A stretch of 43,011 nt of DNA from the NCBI GenBank assembly GCA_013044085.1, contig JABEVI010000034.1:1-43011 (forward strand), given 5' to 3'. The notes under the pieces are model-generated. The model had not been told where the DNA came from. It ran no database searches and was given only the letters and a program-made list of their open reading frames with translations. Of the stretch, positions 25,266 through 35,999 are shown piece by piece; within the stretch, counting starts at the first letter, position 1, and every line of letters starts with the position of its first letter. Made by a program: the position numbers and the translations under genes. Source of the stretch: Steroidobacteraceae bacterium (GTDB taxonomy: Bacteria > Pseudomonadota > Gammaproteobacteria > Steroidobacterales > Steroidobacteraceae).

Positions 25266-27089
25266 TCAGCCCAGCAACTCGGCCATCTTCGGGCGGCTCT
25301 CGACGTAGCGACGGTGCACGTCGGTGTAGGTGTCTACATAGAGCGCATCGACCGCCGGCGCCGGCATGAACTGCCGCGAGAATCCCGGTGCGACGGGGTC
25401 GAGGGCGAGCTCGGCGGCGCGAATCAGATGCGCGAGCAGACTGCGCGGGTCCTCGCTGCCGACCGCGACGCGGACCGTCGTCAATGAAATCCCGGCGTCC
25501 TGCAGCGCCTCCGCGGACAACTCCGAGTGGCTGGTGAGGGCAGGGCAGAGCACGACGGTGTTGGTCTGGCCGAGGCTCACTTGCAGCCCGAACACCGGTT
25601 CGAGCAGGTCGAAGAACGCCTTGAATGCGGCGCGCGGCAGCGGTTCCTGACCGGGCCGGGGTTCGAAGTCGATCGTGAACAGCGGTGCGGGCAGCCCCAG
25701 GAACATGTTCTCCTCGCGCAAGCGCGCGTTGGCGTGACCGGGGACAGCCGAGCAGTTCACGTTGATCCGTGGATGCGCGGCGAGCGCCCGGGCGAGCACC
25801 GAGGTGGTGATGCACTTGGCGAGCATGCGCAATTCGAGGGTGCGCATGCCGTTGATGACTTCGTAGGCCTTGTCGGCGTCGAGGAACGCGCCCTTGATGT
25901 AGTAGACGTTCCAGAACATCGTCGCGTCCCAGGGGACCGTCTCGGTGCGCCCGTTTGGCCGCCGCACGTCCGCGCTCGCGCCCTTCGGCAGAAACATGTC
26001 CTCGTTGCGGCCGATCGCGACGCCCGCCGTCGTCGCGCCGTAGCCGGCGAGATCCTTGGTGTAGGAATGAATCACGAAGTCGGGCCGCTCCATCGGGTCC
26101 TCTCGGCGCAACACCGGCTGTAGAAACGGTGTGCCGATGGTCGCGTCGCAGATGACGGTGTGGCCCGCCTCGTGCGCGACCCGGCAGATGCCGGCAACGT
26201 CGAGCACGTAGCCATGCGGGTTGCAGGGGCTTTCGATGTAGACGTAGACGCGTCGGCCGCCGGCCAGCCGCTCGGCGTACTGCAGGCGCACATCGGCCAG
26301 CGCCCGCTGGACGTCGGCGGCCTCGTAGCCGTCGAACCAGTGAATGCCGACGTCGAGATTGCTGTGCTTGCCGTACCAATCGTGCAGCAGTTGATAGACG
26401 CCGCCGTAGACGTTGCGGCTCGCGAGGACGACGTCCTGGTAGCCGACCAGATGGGCGAGCGTCGCATCGACCGCCGCCATGCCGGAGTTGAAGTTCCAGG
26501 CGAAATACTCGTGCGCCCGATGTCCCGCTTCGACATCGACGATGTGGTTGGCGAGGCTGACGGAGGTCGGATTCAGGAGCCGCGAGTAGATTTCGTGGAG
26601 CAACTCCTTGCCCTTGAACGCGTCCTCCGCCCACTCGACGCAGGCGTACAGATAGGTGGCCGTGCGGGTGATGACCGGTGTTGCCGAGAAGATCGCCGTC
26701 ACGTTGTCGAAGATCGGATACGGTCCACGCCCCGCGCCGATCCCGGCCGGTCCCGCCAGGGACTGGTAGGTCGCACGCATCGGCGACTGCAGGCTGTCGA
26801 GTATCTTCGCCATCTGGAAGCACGCGAAGCGCTTGGCGTTGAACCAGGCGATGCGGTCCTTGCGGTCGAGCCCGGCGAGTTCCCGGGTCGTCACCGCGAT
26901 CAGGTCCTGGACGGCGACGTTGCTGCCGTACAGATGCTCCGTGAGGCGCGCCAGCGCTAGGCCATAGGAGCCGGACGGCTCGATGCCGAAGTGGCGCAAC
27001 TGCTCGTCCACGAGTTCGCGCATCGAGTCGGCGGTGGTGGTGTTGCGCAGCGGGCTGAGCTGGCGGGCATGGAAGGTGTCGGTGCTCAT
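25266..27089 (-). CDS. Cys/Met-metabolism PLP-dependent enzyme (cystathionine gamma-synthase / methionine gamma-lyase superfamily), unusually long
   Basis: IYSRLLNPTSVSLANHIVDVEAG, WNFNSGMAAVDATLAHLVGYQDVVLASRNVYGG, YIESPCNPHGYVLDV, CDATIGTPFLQPV, PLP-lysine context HSYTKDLAGYGATTAGVAIG. Start ATG 27089 with a GGAG-type RBS. Confidence 0.88.
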   Translation of the reverse strand: MSTDTFHARQLSPLRNTTTADSMRELVDEQLRHFGIEPSGSYGLALARLTEHLYGSNVAVQDLIAVTTRELAGLDRKDRIAWFNAKRFACFQMAKILDSLQSPMRATYQSLAGPAGIGAGRGPYPIFDNVTAIFSATPVITRTATYLYACVEWAEDAFKGKELLHEIYSRLLNPTSVSLANHIVDVEAGHRAHEYFAWNFNSGMAAVDATLAHLVGYQDVVLASRNVYGGVYQLLHDWYGKHSNLDVGIHWFDGYEAADVQRALADVRLQYAERLAGGRRVYVYIESPCNPHGYVLDVAGICRVAHEAGHTVICDATIGTPFLQPVLRREDPMERPDFVIHSYTKDLAGYGATTAGVAIGRNEDMFLPKGASADVRRPNGRTETVPWDATMFWNVYYIKGAFLDADKAYEVINGMRTLELRMLAKCITTSVLARALAAHPRINVNCSAVPGHANARLREENMFLGLPAPLFTIDFEPRPGQEPLPRAAFKAFFDLLEPVFGLQVSLGQTNTVVLCPALTSHSELSAEALQDAGISLTTVRVAVGSEDPRSLLAHLIRAAELALDPVAPGFSRQFMPAPAVDALYVDTYTDVHRRYVESRPKMAELLG

Positions 27090-27135
27090 GCAGTTCTCCT
27101 GATCGGCGGGGTGCGGAAATTCTAACCGGATCGGC

Positions 27136-27181
27136 TTGGCAGGGGCTGCCAAACATGCCAAAGTAGGTTTTATATTTGGCA
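27136..27181. promoter_or_regulatory. Candidate Lrp-type operator in the divergent intergenic region
   Basis: Four half-sites: TTGGCA 27136-27141, TGCCAAA 27147-27153, TGCCAAA 27156-27162, TTTGGCA 27175-27181. Confidence 0.6.
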
Positions 27182-27196
27182 GAATCGATCAATAAA

Positions 27197-27667
27197 ATGT
27201 CGAAAATAGATCGCATCGATTCAAAAATCCTGCAGGAGATACAGGCCGACGGCCGCATTTCGATCCAGGACCTCGCCCGCAAAGTCGGCTTGTCCGCGTC
27301 ACCCTGCTTGCGGCGTTTGCGGATGCTCGAAGCCGCCGGCGTCATCCGCGGATACACCGCGATCGTCGACGAGGAACGCTTCGGACTTCCGGTGACCGCC
27401 TTCGTGCGCTTGCGGCTGGATCGTCACTCCGACGACCGGGTGGGGCGCTTCGAGCGTGCGATCCAGGAGATCGGGGATGTCCTCGAATGTCACGTGTTGG
27501 CGGGCGATTACGACTACATGCTGAGGGTGTTGGTCGCCGACCTCAAGAGCTACGAAACCTTCGTCCGCCGGCACATCCATACCATTCCTGGCATCGCCGC
27601 ACTCGAAACGAGCTTCGCCTACGGTACGGTCAAGAGAGCGGCCGTGTTCCCCCCGCGAGCCGGCTGA
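27197..27667 (+). CDS. Lrp/AsnC-family transcriptional regulator
   Basis: MSKIDRIDSKILQEIQADGRISIQDLARKVGLSASPCLRRLRMLEAAGVIRGYTAIVDEERFGLPVTAFVRL; ligand-domain HVLAGDYDYMLRVLVADLKSYETF. Confidence 0.95.
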   Translation: MSKIDRIDSKILQEIQADGRISIQDLARKVGLSASPCLRRLRMLEAAGVIRGYTAIVDEERFGLPVTAFVRLRLDRHSDDRVGRFERAIQEIGDVLECHVLAGDYDYMLRVLVADLKSYETFVRRHIHTIPGIAALETSFAYGTVKRAAVFPPRAG

Positions 27668-27704: not shown

Positions 27705-28265
27705 ATGAGTGTTGCCAGTCCCGGCGAGCGTGCCGAACTCGATCGACTCCTGTTGCTGAGCGGTCGCGGTGACCAGAAGGCGTTCGCCGAACTCTACAAG
27801 CGATCCTCGGCGATGCTGTTCGGCGTGTGTCTGCGCATGCTGCGCGATCGGGGCGAGGCGGAGGAAGTCCTTCAGGAAACCTACACGAGCGTCTGGCGCT
27901 ACGCGGCGAGCTTCGACGCCGCCAAGGCCGGTGCGATCACCTGGTTGGTCACCTTGTCGCGCAACAAGGCGATCGACCGGTTGCGCCAGCGCCGCGTGCA
28001 GGCGCCCGCGGATCCCGGGGCGCTGGAGGAAGTCTTGGATGAGCGACCGACGCCGGCCGCCGACGCCCAGTCCAGCCAGGAATACGAGCGGCTGGCACGC
28101 TGCATGGACCAACTCGAGCCGCAACACCGTCGTGCCGTGCGTGAAGCTTTTTTCACCGGTGCTACGTATAACGAATTGGCGGTGCGTACCCACGTGCCGC
28201 TTGGGACCATGAAGAGCTGGATCCGCCGCAGTCTTATGCAGTTACGCACGTGCCTGGAATCATGA
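27705..28265 (+). CDS. ECF-type RNA polymerase sigma factor (SigK-like)
   Basis: FAELYKRSSAMLFGVCLRMLRDRGEAEEVLQETYTSVWRYAASFD; sigma-4 region YNELAVRTHVPLGTMKSWIRRSLMQLRTCL. Confidence 0.93.
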   Translation: MSVASPGERAELDRLLLLSGRGDQKAFAELYKRSSAMLFGVCLRMLRDRGEAEEVLQETYTSVWRYAASFDAAKAGAITWLVTLSRNKAIDRLRQRRVQAPADPGALEEVLDERPTPAADAQSSQEYERLARCMDQLEPQHRRAVREAFFTGATYNELAVRTHVPLGTMKSWIRRSLMQLRTCLES

Positions 28266-28987
28266 GTGCCTCCGGCGACAACGAGCAGCCGGAGCTGCGC
28301 TTTGCCGAGTACGTGCTCGGGGTGCTCGACGCCGATGAGCGCGCCGCCGTGGCTCATGAGGCCGAGACCCGCGCCGAGGCGGCCATCGCCTTGCAAGCGT
28401 GGCAGCGACGGCTGATGCCGCTTGCCGAGCCCATCGCCGCGCTGGCCCCGGCGCCCTATGTCTGGGCGCGGATTTGCGATGCGCTACAGATGAACGCGTC
28501 CGGCCGGATCGCGCCGCGAAGGAATCTGTGGAATGACCTGCGCCTGTGGCGCTCGCTCGGCGTCGGTGCGCTTGCCATGTCGCTGGTTTTGGCGTTCGTG
28601 CTGATGATGCCGCTTGCGGCGCGCCGGACCCGGCCGGGAAACCGCATCGAGTACATGGCGGCAACCCTGCAGCAGACGGACGGTGTGGCCGAATGGACGG
28701 CAACCATGGATTTGCGGCACGCCCGCATGGTGGTCGTACCGGCCACGCCGGCGCCGGCGCCATCGGGGCGCGCCGCGGAGCTGTGGTTGATCCCGGCCGG
28801 AGAGAAACCCGTCGCGGTCGGCATGATCGCACTCGACCGACCCACCACGATTGCGTTGAATTCGGCGCTGATGGCGCGGCTCGGCCCGACCGCGATGCTC
28901 GCCGTGTCCCTGGAGCCGGCGGGCGGTTCGCCGACGGGTGAGCCGAGCGGACCGGTGGTCGCGAAGGGAGCGATCGGCGCGGCTTAG
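28262..28987 (+). CDS. RskA-like anti-sigma factor
   Basis: FAEYVLGVLDADERAAV N-terminal motif, single TM (LGVGALAMSLVLAFVLMMPLA), C-terminal RskA motif GRAAELWLIPAGEKPVAVGMIALD; ATGA overlap with the sigma gene. Confidence 0.88.
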   Translation: MSASGDNEQPELRFAEYVLGVLDADERAAVAHEAETRAEAAIALQAWQRRLMPLAEPIAALAPAPYVWARICDALQMNASGRIAPRRNLWNDLRLWRSLGVGALAMSLVLAFVLMMPLAARRTRPGNRIEYMAATLQQTDGVAEWTATMDLRHARMVVVPATPAPAPSGRAAELWLIPAGEKPVAVGMIALDRPTTIALNSALMARLGPTAMLAVSLEPAGGSPTGEPSGPVVAKGAIGAA

Positions 28988-29053
28988 AAGAACCGCTGCG
29001 ACCGGCCTGTGGTCGCCGGCGCGTTATCTGTCCGGCGAATGCATCCGTTGCCG

Positions 29054-29083
29054 GCGTTTGCCCGTATCTTCGGGCGCAAACGC
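29054..29083 (+). promoter_or_regulatory. Strong hairpin in the desaturase 5' leader next to the RBS
   Basis: GCGTTTG-CCCG-[TATCTT]-CGGG-(CG)-CAAACGC: 11 paired bp with a 2-nt bulge; ends 2 nt before AGGGA (29086-29090) and 16 nt before ATG 29100. Confidence 0.55.
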
Positions 29084-29099
29084 TCAGGGACAGACTTGT

Positions 29100-30014
29100 A
29101 TGACAGTTTCCGAAGAAAGGACCCCGGCGCAGCGGTCGTGGATGATGCGTACGATCCGCCGCTGGTTCGACACCGGGGTTGCCGTCGAGACCGAGACGGG
29201 GCGCGAGGATCGCATCGACTGGTTGCGCGCCGCGCCCTTCATCGCCATGCACGTGGCCTGCCTGGGCGTGATCTGGGTCGGCGTTTCGACGTCGGCGCTC
29301 GTCGTCGCGGGGACGATGTATGCGGTGCGCATGTTCGCCCTGACCGGGTTCTATCACCGCTACTTCTCGCATCGCGCGTTCCGTACCTCGCGCGGCCTGC
29401 AGTTCGTGTTTGCGGTGATCGGCGCCTCGTGTGTGCAGCGCGGGCCGTTGTGGTGGGCCGCCCATCACCGCAACCACCATCGGTGCGCCGATACCGCGGG
29501 CGATCCGCATTCGCCGCGCATCCATGGTTTCTGGTGGAGCCACGCGGGCTGGTTCCTCACGCCGCGAAATTTCCGCACGGATCTGGCCAGAGTGCCGGAT
29601 CTGGCGAAGTACCGCGAGCTTCGCCTGCTCGATCGCTACGATACCCTGGTGCCCGTGCTGCTGGCCGCCGCGCTGTACGGGTTCGGCGGGGCGCAGATGC
29701 TGATCTGGGGTTTCTTCGTTTCCACAGTGGTGTTGTTCCATGCCACGGTGACGATCAACTCGCTGGCTCACCGGTTCGGAAGCCGCCGTTTCGCCACGCG
29801 GGACGACAGCCGCAACAACCTGTGGCTCGCGCTGCTGACCTTCGGCGAAGGCTGGCACAACAACCATCACTTCTTCCCCGGCAGCAGCCGCCAGGGATTC
29901 CGTTGGTGGGAGATCGACATCTCCTGGTACGGACTGAAACTCATGTCGATGCTGGGCCTGGTGAGTGAACTCAAGCCGCTGCCGGTCTGGGTGCATGCCC
30001 GGGCGATCGGTTGA
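29100..30014 (+). CDS. Acyl-CoA (delta-9-type) fatty acid desaturase
   Basis: Histidine boxes FYHRYFSHRAF, AAHHRNHHRCAD, GEGWHNNHHFFPGSSRQGF. Confidence 0.92.
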   Translation: MTVSEERTPAQRSWMMRTIRRWFDTGVAVETETGREDRIDWLRAAPFIAMHVACLGVIWVGVSTSALVVAGTMYAVRMFALTGFYHRYFSHRAFRTSRGLQFVFAVIGASCVQRGPLWWAAHHRNHHRCADTAGDPHSPRIHGFWWSHAGWFLTPRNFRTDLARVPDLAKYRELRLLDRYDTLVPVLLAAALYGFGGAQMLIWGFFVSTVVLFHATVTINSLAHRFGSRRFATRDDSRNNLWLALLTFGEGWHNNHHFFPGSSRQGFRWWEIDISWYGLKLMSMLGLVSELKPLPVWVHARAIG

Positions 30015-30018
30015 GCCC

Positions 30019-31272
30019 ATGCGTATCGCCGTGGTCGGCTCGGGCATCGCCGGACTTGCCTCGGCATGGCTGCTGTCGCGACAGCATGAGGTGACCTTGT
30101 TCGAGGCGGACGGCCGTCTCGGCGGGCATACGCACACCCACGAGGTGCGTCTGCGTGGCCGCGATTATCGGATCGACAGCGGCTTCATCGTCTACAACCC
30201 GGTGCATTACCCCTTGCTCGCACGACTGTTCGCCGAACTCGGCGTGGCCTCGCAGCCGACCACCATGAGCTTTTCGGTGCACAACGAGGCGAGCGGGCTC
30301 GAATACAACGCAGGTACGCTGAATGGGCTGTTCTGCCAGCGGCGCAATCTGTTCTCGCCGCGCTTTCTCGGCATGGTGCGCGATCTGGTGCGCTTCTATC
30401 GCGAGGCGCCAGCCTTGTTGTCGACGAGCGGGCAGGCACAGACGCTCGGCGAGTATCTGCTCGCGGGCGGCTATGGAGCGGCCTTTCGCGACGAGCATCT
30501 GATCCCGATGGCGAGCGCATTGTGGTCCTCGCCGGCCACGCAGATTCTGCGCTTCCCGGTGCGCTATCTGCTGCAGTTCATGGCCAACCACCAGATGCTG
30601 CAGCTCGGCGGCCGTCCACAGTGGCGGGTGGTGAGTGGCGGCTCATCCTCGTACGTGAAGGCTCTGCGGGCGGGCTGGTCGGTGCGCGAGCGCCTGAGCT
30701 GTCCGGTCCACTCGATCAGACGCGACGCCGACGGCGTGCAATTGCTGAGCGCCGCGGGGCCTGAACGCTTCGACCGGGTGGTGCTCGCCTGTCACAGCGA
30801 TCAGGCGCTCGCCTTGCTTGCCGATGCCGATGCCCGCGAGACATCGATCCTCACGGCGATGGGCTATCAGAGCAACGAGGCGGTGCTGCACACCGACGCG
30901 CGCGTGCTGCCGCGCCGGCGGCGGGCCTGGGCGGCGTGGAACGCCTGGCTGCCGCGGGACCCGGGCGGTGCGTGCACCGTGAGCTATTGCATGAACCTGC
31001 TGCAAGGTCTCGATGCACCGGAAGCCTTCGTCGTCACGCTCAATCGCACCGCGGACATCGACCCCGGCAAAGTGCTGGCGCGGATGACCTACCAGCATCC
31101 GCTCTACACCGCGGCGTCAGTGGCCGCGCAGCAGCGCAAGGCCGAGATCCAGGGCCGCAGGCATACCTGGTTTGCCGGCGCCTACTGGGGCTGGGGCTTT
31201 CACGAGGATGGCCTGCGCAGTGCCGTGGAAGCGGCCGCGGCGCAGGGTGTCCGCTGGGAGGCGGCGGCATGA
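30019..31272 (+). CDS. FAD/NAD(P)-binding amine-oxidase-like protein of CFA-type lipid operons
   Basis: MRIAVVGSGIAGLASAWLLSRQHEVTLFEADGRLGGHTHT; DSGFIVYNPVHYPLLARLFAELGV; WFAGAYWGWGFHEDGLRSAV. Confidence 0.92.
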   Translation: MRIAVVGSGIAGLASAWLLSRQHEVTLFEADGRLGGHTHTHEVRLRGRDYRIDSGFIVYNPVHYPLLARLFAELGVASQPTTMSFSVHNEASGLEYNAGTLNGLFCQRRNLFSPRFLGMVRDLVRFYREAPALLSTSGQAQTLGEYLLAGGYGAAFRDEHLIPMASALWSSPATQILRFPVRYLLQFMANHQMLQLGGRPQWRVVSGGSSSYVKALRAGWSVRERLSCPVHSIRRDADGVQLLSAAGPERFDRVVLACHSDQALALLADADARETSILTAMGYQSNEAVLHTDARVLPRRRRAWAAWNAWLPRDPGGACTVSYCMNLLQGLDAPEAFVVTLNRTADIDPGKVLARMTYQHPLYTAASVAAQQRKAEIQGRRHTWFAGAYWGWGFHEDGLRSAVEAAAAQGVRWEAAA

Positions 31273-32066
31273 GGCCCGCGGCGCGGATTGTGGCGCAGGA
31301 CCGAAGCGAGCCGTTCGCGAGCGCCGTCTACGAAGGACGCGTGCGCCACCATCGTCTGGCGCCGCATGCGCATCGTTTCGAATATCGCATGGCGCAGCTG
31401 TATCTGGATCTGGGCGAGATCGACCGGGTGTTCGAGCGACGCTGGCTGTGGTCGCAGCGGCATGCGAACCTCGCGCGCTTCCAACGCGCCGACTACCTCG
31501 GTCCGACAGACCTATCCTTGGAGGAGGCGGTGCGTCGGCGTGTCGCGCTGGCGACCGGCCGGCGGCCGCCGGGACCGATTCGATTGTTGACCCATCTGCG
31601 CTACGCCGGCGTGGTGTTCAACCCGGTCAGCTTCTATTACTGCTATGAGGCCGATGGGGTGACGCTGGCGTGCATTCTGGCGGAAATCACCAACACGCCC
31701 TGGCGCGAGCGGCACGCCTACGTGCTTCCCCTGGAGACCGCGTTGCGCCGTGGACGCAGCTTGAGATGGACGTTTGCGAAGAGCTTTCACGTCTCGCCGT
31801 TCATGCCGATGGATCGGACCTACGACTGGCGTTTTACCGTGCCAGGAGAGGATCTTCAGGTTCACATGGACGTGCTGCGCGAAGGCGAGAGGGAGTTCGA
31901 CGCCACGCTGTGCCTCAGGCGCCTGCCACTCTGCGGTGCATCGCTCGCCCGCGTGCTCTGGCGTTATCCGTTGATGACGGCCCAGGTCATCGGTGCCATC
32001 CACTGGCAGGCACTGCGTCTGTGGATGAAGCGCAACCCTGTCCATGATCACCCGCAACCGCATTGA
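31269..32066 (+). CDS. DUF1365 family protein
   Basis: YEGRVRHHRLAPHAHRFEYRMAQLYLDLGEID, RLLTHLRYAGVVFNPVSFYYCYE, ILAEITNTPWRERHAYVLP, KSFHVSPFMPMDRTYDWRF; ATGA overlap with the preceding gene. Confidence 0.93.
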   Translation: MRPAARIVAQDRSEPFASAVYEGRVRHHRLAPHAHRFEYRMAQLYLDLGEIDRVFERRWLWSQRHANLARFQRADYLGPTDLSLEEAVRRRVALATGRRPPGPIRLLTHLRYAGVVFNPVSFYYCYEADGVTLACILAEITNTPWRERHAYVLPLETALRRGRSLRWTFAKSFHVSPFMPMDRTYDWRFTVPGEDLQVHMDVLREGEREFDATLCLRRLPLCGASLARVLWRYPLMTAQVIGAIHWQALRLWMKRNPVHDHPQPH

Positions 32067-32073
32067 GGATCCC

Positions 32074-34389
32074 ATGAACGCCATCGTCAGACCGGATGTT
32101 CCCGAACCCACCACCGCCGGCGCTGCGTCGGCCGGCACGCGCTTCCTGCGCAGCCGCCTTCTCGGGCGTATGGCCGGCCTTCGCCACGGCCGGCTGACGC
32201 TGCGCGATGCCTGGGGCACGGTCGAATTCGGCACACCCCGCTCGGCGCGGCCCGATCTGATCGTGCATGTCGAGGTGCTCGACATGGCGTTTTATCGCGC
32301 GGTCGCGGCCAATGGCAGCGTCGGCGCGGGCGAGTCTTGGATGGACGGGCATTGGCGCTGCGACAATCTGGTCGGCTTGATACAGCTGTTGGTGCGCAAC
32401 CGTGACTGGCTCGACGGGATGGAGGGCGGTGCGGCGCGGCTCGGCGGCATCGCGATGCGGGCATGGAATGCGCTGCGCAGGAATACCCGCGACGGCAGCC
32501 GCCGCAACATCGCGGCGCACTACGATCTAGGCAACGATTTTTTCCGTCTGTTTCTCAGCAGCGATTTGCTGTATTCGTCGGCGATCTGGCAGGGCGCGGA
32601 TGACACACTCGAGGCCGCCTCGACCCGCAAGCTTGAGGTCATCTGTCGAAAACTCGAGCTGAAGCCTTCGGATCATGTCATCGAGATCGGCACCGGCTGG
32701 GGCGGCTTTGCGTTGCACGCGGCGAAATACCACGGCTGCCGCGTCACCACGACCACCATCTCCCGTGAACAACACGCGCTCGCGGTCGAGCGGATCGCCG
32801 CGGCCGGCCTGAGCGGGCGCGTCACCGTGCTGCTGGAGGACTACCGGGACCTGCGCGGCCGGTACGACAAGCTGGTATCGATCGAAATGGTGGAAGCGAT
32901 CGGCGCGGCTTACCTCGATGCCTACTTCGAGCGGATGGGGGCCTTGTTGAAGGGCGGCGGGCTGGCGTTGCTGCAGGCGATCACCATCGAGGATCACCGC
33001 TACGAACAGGCGTTGAAGACGGTCGACTTCATCAAGCGGCACGTGTTCCCCGGCAGTTTCATTCCCTCGATCAACGCATTGCTCGCCGCCAAGACCCGCA
33101 GCAGCGACCTGACGCTTCTGCACCTGGAGGATTTCGGTGCCTCCTACGCCCGCACGCTCGAGGCCTGGCGCGAACGCTTCATGGAGCGCCTGCCGCAGGC
33201 GCGCGCGCAAGGATTCGAGGATCGGTTCCTGCGCCTGTGGGAGTTCTACCTGGCCTACTGCGAAGGCGGCTTCCGCGAGCGCTCGATCGGTGTCGCGCAC
33301 CTGCTGATGAGCAAGCCCGAGGGCTCGGCCCAGCCGACGCCGCCGACGCCGCCGCCGTCCGGGCTGCTGGGTCTCGCCGAGCGCGGCCGGTTACCCGACG
33401 TGCTGCTGCGCAAGGGCATCCGCGGGCTGTGCGCGCGGCGGCTGCGTGATGAACGCCGCGGCGGGCTTGCTGCGCAGGCGCAGCGTTTCGCCCAACGCAT
33501 CGAGATGCTCAAGCAAAGCCCGGTCGCGATCCATACCGACACCGCGAATCGGCAGCACTACGAGCTGCCGCCGGCTTTCTTCGAGTTGTGCCTCGGCAAG
33601 CGGTTGAAATATTCGGCTTGCTATTATCCGCGCGGCGACGAGTCGCTCGATCAGGCCGAGGAGGCGATGCTGGGTTTGTACGCCGAGCGGGCCGAACTCG
33701 CCGACGGCCAGAGTGTGCTCGAACTCGGCTGCGGCTGGGGATCGCTGACCCTGTGGATGGCCGAGCGCTTTCCGCGGACCGCGATCGTCGCGGTTTCGAA
33801 TTCGAATCAGCAGCGCGAGTACATCGAGGGGCAGTGCCGGCGGCGGGGCTTGGCGAACGTGCAGGTGATCACGTGCGACGTCAATCAGCTGGACCTGCCA
33901 GCCGGCCGATTCGACCGTTGCGTCTCGATCGAGATGTTCGAACACATGCGAAATTACGAGACCTTGCTCGCCCGCATCGGCGGCTGGTTGAAGCCGGGTG
34001 GCAAGCTGTTCGTGCACGTATTTGCGCATCAGTCGCTGATGTATGCGTTCGAGACCGAGGGCGATGACAACTGGATGGGCCGCCATTTCTTCAGCGGCGG
34101 CCTCATGCCGGCGGCCGACACGCTTCTATGGTTCCAGCGTGAGCTGCGTCTGGAGGAGCGCTGGTACCTCGACGGTACGCATTATCGGCGCACCGCCGAT
34201 CATTGGTTGGCCAATCAGGATGCGCGGCGTGCGCAGGTGATGCCGGTGTTGGTCGAGGCCTATGGGGCCGAGGCGGCCAACCTGTGGTTCCAGCGCTGGC
34301 GCATGTTCTGGATGTCCTGCGCGGAGCTGTTTGGCTATGCCGGAGGCCAGGAATGGCTGGTGGTGCATTACCGCTTCGCCAAGGCCTGA
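32074..34389 (+). CDS. Fusion of two CFA-synthase-family SAM-dependent methyltransferases
   Basis: Domain 1: HYDLGNDFFRLFLSSDLLYSSAIW...VIEIGTGWGGFALHAA...FPGSFIPSINALL. Proline-rich linker QPTPPTPPPSG. Domain 2: RGRLPDVLLRKGIRGLCARRLRDE...HYELPPAFFELCLGKRLKYSACYYP...VLELGCGWGSLTLWMAERFP...EMFEHMRNYETLLARIGGWLKPGGKLFVHVFAH. Start ATG 32074 after GAGGA. Confidence 0.92.
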   Translation: MNAIVRPDVPEPTTAGAASAGTRFLRSRLLGRMAGLRHGRLTLRDAWGTVEFGTPRSARPDLIVHVEVLDMAFYRAVAANGSVGAGESWMDGHWRCDNLVGLIQLLVRNRDWLDGMEGGAARLGGIAMRAWNALRRNTRDGSRRNIAAHYDLGNDFFRLFLSSDLLYSSAIWQGADDTLEAASTRKLEVICRKLELKPSDHVIEIGTGWGGFALHAAKYHGCRVTTTTISREQHALAVERIAAAGLSGRVTVLLEDYRDLRGRYDKLVSIEMVEAIGAAYLDAYFERMGALLKGGGLALLQAITIEDHRYEQALKTVDFIKRHVFPGSFIPSINALLAAKTRSSDLTLLHLEDFGASYARTLEAWRERFMERLPQARAQGFEDRFLRLWEFYLAYCEGGFRERSIGVAHLLMSKPEGSAQPTPPTPPPSGLLGLAERGRLPDVLLRKGIRGLCARRLRDERRGGLAAQAQRFAQRIEMLKQSPVAIHTDTANRQHYELPPAFFELCLGKRLKYSACYYPRGDESLDQAEEAMLGLYAERAELADGQSVLELGCGWGSLTLWMAERFPRTAIVAVSNSNQQREYIEGQCRRRGLANVQVITCDVNQLDLPAGRFDRCVSIEMFEHMRNYETLLARIGGWLKPGGKLFVHVFAHQSLMYAFETEGDDNWMGRHFFSGGLMPAADTLLWFQRELRLEERWYLDGTHYRRTADHWLANQDARRAQVMPVLVEAYGAEAANLWFQRWRMFWMSCAELFGYAGGQEWLVVHYRFAKA

Positions 34390-34719: not shown

Positions 34720-35871
34720 CTAGCCGTCCCCACCGCCGGGATGGGTAGTGCAGGCGTGCGCTGCATTGTTGTACTCAGGCTGGATCCAGTAGGCATTACC
34801 GTTCAACTGAACTCGGCTCGGGTCGAAGTACACCGTCGTTGTCGGTCCCGGAACCGCCGGCGGCGGCGGATTGACGGCGAGGAAGCTGCACTCGTCGCCG
34901 ATCTCCTGGCCGAATACGCCGTTGTCCTCCTCGTTCCACCAGCCGGTCGGCCAGGCGCCCACGGTATTCGGATCGGTGATGGTCTCGAACGTCTCGTGCG
35001 AAAGCACGGAGTTCGTCGAATCCACGAGCTGACCGTTGCCGGTGTTCGGCCGGACCGAGCAGCCGCTCACGTCCTGATACGGTTCAACCGTGTAGATCGC
35101 CACGGCTGAGTTCGGGAACTGAGTGGCATTGTGGTACGCGCAGTACTTGAAACTGTTCGCATTGTCCGGCGAGTAGCACGTTCCGGAGAATTGACACTCA
35201 TCCTGACCCGGCGAGAGGAAAATGTTGTAAATCGCGTGAAAGCCAGTCGGCAGTCCGAACGCAGACGTCACCGTGTATACGATCTGCTGCATGTCCCCGT
35301 CCGACAACGGGGTGCCGGGAGGCAGGCCTGGCACGCTCACCATGATGGGCTTCGGATACACGCGGTACCGGTCGCCGTCCTGGGAGTTAACGTACTGGTC
35401 AGTGATGTGAATCATTTGGCTGCTGCCCAGATCGCGCAGGAAGCCGGCCGGATCACCCCAACACGAGGCAATCGAGGCCTTCGAACTGCATGACGCGTTG
35501 GGAGTCGTATCGACGTAGATCAAGTACTGGGTGGCCGTCTGAATCGTCTGCCCGCCGTGGTACTCCAGCGTGCCGGGATAGCGGGTGCCCTTGTGTTGCT
35601 CCTGCCAGTCGCCTGAGGAATTCCCGGAGCCGCCCCCGCGCATCTCGAACTCCTGCGCACTCTGCGACATCTTGCCGGCCGCCGTGTTCGCATAAAGCAC
35701 GTGGGGCACGCCCGGCTGCGCCTGCGCAACGACGCTACTGGCATAACCTGAGAGATTGACCGTCAAATGAAGCGACTGCTGCGCGGCCCGGACCGGCGAG
35801 CAGGTCAAGACCGTTGCAATCGTTCCGGCGACCGTGGCCAGCGCGGAAGACCATAAACGCGACCTTTGCAT
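34720..35871 (-). CDS. Secreted EXORDIUM/phosphate-induced-protein-like protein with HExxE-type motif
   Basis: Signal peptide MQRSRLWSSALATVAGTIATVLTCSPVRA; YCAYHNATQFPNSAVAIYTVEPYQDVSGC, SVLSHETFETITDPNTVGAWPTGWWNEEDNGVFGQEIGDECSF. Confidence 0.7.
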   Translation of the reverse strand: MQRSRLWSSALATVAGTIATVLTCSPVRAAQQSLHLTVNLSGYASSVVAQAQPGVPHVLYANTAAGKMSQSAQEFEMRGGGSGNSSGDWQEQHKGTRYPGTLEYHGGQTIQTATQYLIYVDTTPNASCSSKASIASCWGDPAGFLRDLGSSQMIHITDQYVNSQDGDRYRVYPKPIMVSVPGLPPGTPLSDGDMQQIVYTVTSAFGLPTGFHAIYNIFLSPGQDECQFSGTCYSPDNANSFKYCAYHNATQFPNSAVAIYTVEPYQDVSGCSVRPNTGNGQLVDSTNSVLSHETFETITDPNTVGAWPTGWWNEEDNGVFGQEIGDECSFLAVNPPPPAVPGPTTTVYFDPSRVQLNGNAYWIQPEYNNAAHACTTHPGGGDG

Positions 35872-35999
35872 GGAGTGACCCCTCAATTGTTATTTCTATT
35901 CCGAGCAGAAGAGCTTGGCTGTTGGCAACCAACACCCAGCCCGTTGCTGTTGCAGGCACGTTGGAGAACGACTGAAGATAGGCGCCGCGTTCCGCGGTT

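Follow-up and report, generated by a model that had tools for sequence, protein, structure and literature searches.

A likely furan fatty acid operon with its own SigK/RskA-type regulator and a fused methyltransferase in a Steroidobacteraceae genome

A block of six genes in a genome of the Steroidobacteraceae, within the 43,011-nucleotide stretch of DNA analysed here (the window), is likely to be a dedicated furan fatty acid operon under its own SigK/RskA-type switch. Such fatty acids are lipids of the membrane and are believed to give protection from harmful oxygen species. The gene set itself is already known; what is new is that two of its methyltransferases are fused into one protein, and we also document exchange of the regulator among relatives. 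A broader reading, to which we give about even chances, is that SigK/RskA and RpoE/ChrR pairs have taken each other's place seven times or more ahead of a furan operon with a constant promoter, and that the source genome unites the first and last methylation steps in a bifunctional UfaM-FufM enzyme. The analysis gives a loosely named lipid-remodelling operon the shape of a dimethyl-furan pathway that is specific enough to be tested and that includes a candidate bifunctional enzyme.

The six-gene order, the coordinates and the tight spacing except before the desaturase gene all hold as the first-pass annotation had given them (Table 1). The sigma and anti-sigma genes share an ATGA overlap (28262), as do the FAD and DUF1365 genes (31269); 4 bp separate desaturase and FAD genes, 7 bp the DUF1365 and methyltransferase genes, and a 112-bp gap lies between the anti-sigma and desaturase genes. 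All six genes have intact domains, with Pfam matches far over cut-off (Sigma70_r2 2e-14, RskA_C 9e-20, FA_desaturase 4e-26, Amino_oxidase 2e-23, DUF1365 3e-83, CMAS 1e-115), and the proposal of a lipid-modification operon linked to an ECF/anti-sigma pair is supported. For the last gene, 32074-34389 as a whole, we prefer the start at 32074; the alternative ATG further 5', at 32044, is less probable because a homologue likewise begins MNAIV. Chance does not account for the gene order, since dozens of genomes repeat it. Outside the operon, an Lrp/AsnC-type regulator gene (27176-27667, + strand) lies directly 5' of the sigma gene and is divergent from the gene for a 631-aa Cys/Met-metabolism PLP enzyme (25266-27161, − strand), which has about 150 residues ahead of its matched domain. 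Just 3' of the operon, the opposite strand encodes a 388-aa protein (34720-35886, − strand) that probably carries a signal sequence and matches no family of Pfam or NCBIfam.

Table 1. Features of the operon, with positions in the window.
Feature	Position	Strand	Evidence
ECF sigma factor, SigK-like (ECF18/19 type)	27705..28265	+	Nearest solved relative M. tuberculosis SigK 4nqw, E 1e-30
RskA-like anti-sigma, one predicted membrane stretch, RskA_C	28262..28987	+	PF10099 E 9e-20; no ChrR zinc motif
Predicted ECF promoter TGCATCC-N16-CGTAT, gap before desaturase	29040..29067	+	Element and spacing shared in related loci
Membrane acyl desaturase, stearoyl-CoA desaturase type	29100..30014	+	PF00487 E 4e-26; 4ymk E 2e-24; His boxes
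FAD amine-oxidase-like protein, UfaD-type	30019..31272	+	PF01593 E 2e-23; DUF1365/CFA neighbours as in R. palustris ufaD-ufaO-ufaM
DUF1365 protein, UfaO-type	31269..32066	+	PF07103 E 3e-83; single genome match
Fused methyltransferase, N-terminal half: CFA-like, UfaM-type	32074..33315	+	E. coli CFA synthase 6bqc E 2e-58
Proline-rich linker PEGSAQPTPPTPPPS, fusion point	33316..33360	+	Relatives: CFA stop, intervening genes, separate CNMT start
Fused methyltransferase, C-terminal half: coclaurine-N-methyltransferase-like, FufM-type candidate	33361..34389	+	6gkv E 2e-72

Bacterial furan fatty acids are built by UfaM (a CFA-like methylase), UfaD (a FAD desaturase) and UfaO (a DUF1365 protein, O2-dependent), which suffice for monomethyl-furan synthesis from cis-vaccenate; FufM attaches the second furan methyl to give the dimethyl form (PMC7380195). 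The same set is found here, with the FAD amine-oxidase-like, DUF1365 and CFA-like genes adjacent or overlapping at 30019-34389, and the DUF1365 gene is the only copy matched in a search of the genome. This correspondence to UfaD, UfaO and UfaM (PMC7380195) supports the connection with furan fatty acid genes that had been drawn earlier, and narrows a product first given as methyl-branched, cyclopropane or furan: because the three genes match, furan is favoured and cyclopropane becomes less likely. The operon most likely makes furan fatty acids, and the product is probably a dimethyl-furan fatty acid. The desaturase gene ahead of the set encodes three His boxes conserved in the aligned related loci, and acyl-CoA desaturase 1 (4ymk) is the nearest solved relative of its product.

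The alignment of the N-terminal half of the methyltransferase with E. coli CFA synthase (6bqc) raises the question of a cyclopropane operon, in which this half would turn the products of the desaturase into cyclopropane acids and the remaining enzymes would be accessory. Two of the residues that we take to form the CFA synthase bicarbonate site (C139, E239, H266 and Y317 in E. coli numbering) are kept, E239 and Y317; S stands in place of C139 and Q in place of H266, leaving the CFA synthase set incomplete. The Q is present in all 97 aligned copies and the S in 83 of them, and the same S/Q pair occurs in alphaproteobacterial copies from Brucella, Rhizobium and Azospirillum, which adjoin UfaD, UfaO and a sigma/ChrR-type pair. 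Besides the family match, it speaks for cyclopropane rings that Halomonas ufaM in E. coli raised some cyclic fatty acids along with the methyl intermediate, and that the authors of the Stenotrophomonas maltophilia study name both methyltransferases of their cluster CFA synthases (PMC11832516). Against this, the bicarbonate-site changes and the constant presence of UfaD and UfaO homologues alongside make a cyclopropane operon quite improbable, and a UfaM-type role for the N-terminal half is preferred.

The last gene had been described as a double CFA-type methyltransferase, and here the first-pass annotation has to be corrected: only the N-terminal half is CFA-like, and the C-terminal half matches plant coclaurine N-methyltransferase (CNMT; 6gkv, E 2e-72) over its full length. 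A double CFA synthase is thus ruled out for the C-terminal half and doubtful for the N-terminal half, given its bicarbonate site. The catalytic-type residues E, E and H are present in every aligned copy of the C-terminal half, and separate CNMT-type genes 58-79% identical to it adjoin UfaD/UfaO/UfaM in most related loci. Members of the coclaurine NMT family methylate nitrogen, so the C-terminal half may have another substrate: the pathway would then end at a methyl-branched or monomethyl-furan acid, with this half acting elsewhere, for example on a lipid head-group amine. Its likeness to FufM also runs through an intermediary, the Arabidopsis protein AT4G33110, which we take to be coclaurine-NMT-like, rather than through direct alignment. 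Because FufM is 37.9% identical to AT4G33110 (PMC10940516), we regard the C-terminal half as a FufM candidate that probably adds the second furan methyl. That resemblance, the fusion to the UfaM half and the close linkage of a CNMT-type gene to UfaD/UfaO/UfaM across many loci leave another substrate a rather unlikely possibility.

In relatives the CFA gene ends with a stop and the CNMT gene opens with some 20 leader residues, whereas here the two halves are joined in frame, with no stop, through PEGSAQPTPPTPPPS. The fusion combines a UfaM-type enzyme and a FufM-type candidate in one protein, known from a single MAG. A query with the fused protein gave no second UfaM/CNMT fusion among the matches listed, across about 550 partly overlapping genome records of the order, and in the fetched loci no single ORF spans both halves. 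Open frames of 1000-1500 aa in relatives were considered as signs of a wider fusion and rejected: translating one showed stops, and no ORF spanned both halves. Such restriction to one MAG is what an assembly artefact would produce, the true order then having a DUF1295 gene and a separate CNMT gene. However, the junction is in frame and stop-free with a plausible linker, and a search elsewhere in the genome found no full DUF1295, only a weak match of 45 residues, and no DUF2878 was found in a search that had no positive control. Moreover, a relative (G390, locus L166, 43-5835) has no full-length DUF2878 or DUF1295 between CFA and CNMT and keeps the stop between them, showing loss of both genes without fusion. 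An artefact is on this evidence improbable, and we go on treating the fusion as real. The FAD gene of the same relative appears as two open reading frames.

From searches that used the FAD protein or the fused protein as query we obtained 100 usable loci (two of them duplicates), mostly from Lysobacterales with some from Achromobacter and Bordetella (Burkholderiales). Most of them keep the order desaturase-FAD-DUF1365-CFA; behind the CFA gene there is usually DUF2878 and/or DUF1295, with a CNMT-type gene after that. A unique six-gene operon is thus ruled out: the neighbourhood survey proposed at the outset finds the order in dozens of genomes, and the fused methyltransferase not a second time. 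The linked regulators are sigma/RskA in 36 loci, sigma/ChrR in 25 and both in one, with none in reach in 38, so that a SigK/RskA-type pair is found in more than half of the regulator-linked loci and RpoE/ChrR in the rest. An RskA-like in place of a ChrR anti-sigma is therefore true of this locus but not unusual, as an RskA-type pair is found at 35 further distinct loci, and Rhodobacter capsulatus provides a precedent (PMC7074977). Nor is the built-in desaturase special, since the S. maltophilia cluster has one under ChrR (PMC11832516). On the Rhizobium tropici plasmid pRtrCIAT899a, typed as conjugative, a CNMT-type methyltransferase and a DUF1295 gene are divergent from UfaD/UfaO/UfaM (L183, 1669-9919), and a sigma/ChrR pair is also carried. 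In the operon tree the source genome and the same-genus genome G008 are nearest to Rhodanobacter copies and two other genomes of the genus lie on another branch (L111, L116, L117), which suggests horizontal transfer of the operon.

The sigma factor is SigK-like, of the ECF18/19 type, as judged by its nearest solved relative and by cysteines 133 and 183, the pair known from SigK. Across the related loci all 37 SigK-type sigmas have both cysteines, which the ChrR-type sigmas almost entirely lack. The adjacent membrane anti-sigma carries RskA_C and has no HxxxCxxC zinc motif of the RpoE/ChrR (ECF11) kind, a motif present in 23 of 25 ChrR-type loci and missing from RskA-type anti-sigmas; its earlier assignment as RskA-like and not ChrR (RskA_C E 9e-20) is upheld. 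Against solved structures phmmer returned nothing for the anti-sigma, and a profile gave a marginal 3hug_B (E 0.02).

Dyad counting 5' of the desaturase gene found the element TGCATCC...CGTAT in nearly all loci, with either regulator type. In the form GCATC-N17-CGTA it is present in 32/34 RskA-type loci (source locus counted), or 33/34 with one more at N18, and 5' of the desaturase gene in 23/23 ChrR-type loci; a further fetch gave 10/10 RskA-type loci with the element, two of them already in the first set. Other operon genes have it ahead of them in only about 0-5% of cases. The source genome contains a single strict match, at 29040-29067, against a chance expectation of about one; the relaxed element has 7 matches in 2.56 Mb, so a chance match within 260 bp of the desaturase gene is improbable (about 4e-4). 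That the sole strict match is the operon's own fits the earlier description of the operon as self-contained.

The same element also gives some reason to doubt that the linked pair is the controller. It resembles the Pseudomonas syringae ECF11 consensus TGATCC-N16-CGTA (PMC5507510), and it stands ahead of 20 of the 25 ECF11 sigma genes but of only 2 of the 36 SigK-type sigma genes, both of the latter distant. It was not found in the region upstream of the sigma gene here, and autoregulation of the sigma factor through the same promoter was accordingly discarded. An unlinked sigma factor could thus drive the lipid genes, the adjacency of the SigK/RskA pair being incidental. Yet 35 further distinct loci also have the pair directly 5' of the lipid genes and the promoter in the interval from the anti-sigma to the desaturase gene, and a search of the source genome, run with no positive control, found no ChrR. 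We give an unlinked controller little credence and keep to the linked pair.

On a tree of four shared proteins made by a quick method, with regulators labelled by linkage, 9 changes of label are needed, at least 7 of them forced by well-supported branches, compared with about 19 for shuffled labels. Because the labels rest on linkage, some genomes may have an unlinked second regulator. The same promoter before the desaturase gene in both types of locus means that the regulators could be swapped, which would be a natural case of stress regulators exchanged without rewiring of the target. In Rhodanobacter sp. C01 (L038, 3092-7322), tandem sigma/RskA and sigma/ChrR pairs are followed by a photolyase gene and then the lipid operon; this locus may be an intermediate of the exchange.

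As to the signal, we favour photo-oxidative or redox stress, because a SigK/RskA-like pair replaces RpoE/ChrR in Rhodobacter capsulatus and is induced by photo-oxidative stress (PMC7074977), and because a photolyase gene lies beside the regulator in several relatives. The photolyase gene of the source genome was considered as a second target and rejected, being unlinked and without the promoter element. In M. tuberculosis an oxidised cysteine pair stabilises the SigK-RskA complex (PMC7509140), which means that simple release by oxidation cannot be assumed; the mycobacterial SigK/RskA signal is still called obscure (PMC9861118), and deletion of the S. maltophilia regulator left singlet-oxygen tolerance unchanged in the assay used (PMC11832516). 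In the collection of papers searched, none ties SigK/RskA to furan fatty acids. The operon suggests a lipid output for systems of this type.

Read with homologues and the literature, the parts observed directly (genes, domains, key residues, order, promoter conservation, fusion) suggest a course from stress signal to lipid. The membrane-bound RskA-like anti-sigma would keep the sigma factor inactive until a photo-oxidative, redox or envelope signal freed or activated it, and the sigma factor would then transcribe the lipid genes from the predicted promoter. The desaturase, whose role is a guess, might provide monounsaturated acyl chains; the UfaM half would methylate the double bond, UfaD introduce a second one, and UfaO insert oxygen and close the monomethyl furan. 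A second methyl would come last, from the FufM-like C-terminal half, so that the phospholipids would contain a dimethyl-furan fatty acid.

The nearest known systems differ from the operon in distinct ways. The UfaM-UfaD-UfaO and FufM genes of R. sphaeroides and R. palustris share the FAD, DUF1365 and CFA-type genes, in identical order in R. palustris, and a second methylase probably of the same type; the operon here adds a desaturase, fuses UfaM with the FufM-like half and has SigK/RskA instead of RpoE/ChrR as regulator (PMC7380195). The S. maltophilia cluster smlt2375-smlt2367, to which the gene order of our locus L105 corresponds, is likewise ECF-controlled, has the same promoter element and carries desaturase, FAD, CFA and second methyltransferase genes in the same order; by experiment it is part of the RpoE-ChrR regulon (RpoEc-ChrR), induced by the linked ECF sigma or on removal of ChrR (PMC11832516). 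It differs in its divergent ChrR-type regulator with its own promoter copy, in having DUF2878 and DUF1295, and in keeping two separate methyltransferase genes (PMC11832516).

The M. tuberculosis sigK-rskA locus (Rv0449c to Rv0444c) shares the SigK/RskA pair and a CFA-type enzyme, Rv0447c, and its sigK is transcribed from the Rv0449c promoter. Its further members are presumably a FAD protein (Rv0449c), a DUF1365 protein (Rv0448c) and a DUF1295 protein (Rv0446c); unlike here, the regulator genes come last and are autoregulated, and there is neither a desaturase nor a CNMT-type half. The R. capsulatus 'RpoE-ChrR' is a SigK/RskA-like pair in the RpoE/ChrR place with photo-oxidative induction, but it adjoins photosynthesis genes, and UfaD/UfaO homologues are not reported (PMC7074977). 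Arabidopsis AT3G23510 (AtUFAMD1) also fuses two enzymes of the furan pathway, in that case UfaM with UfaD (PMC10940516), as against UfaM with a FufM-like half in the protein described here.
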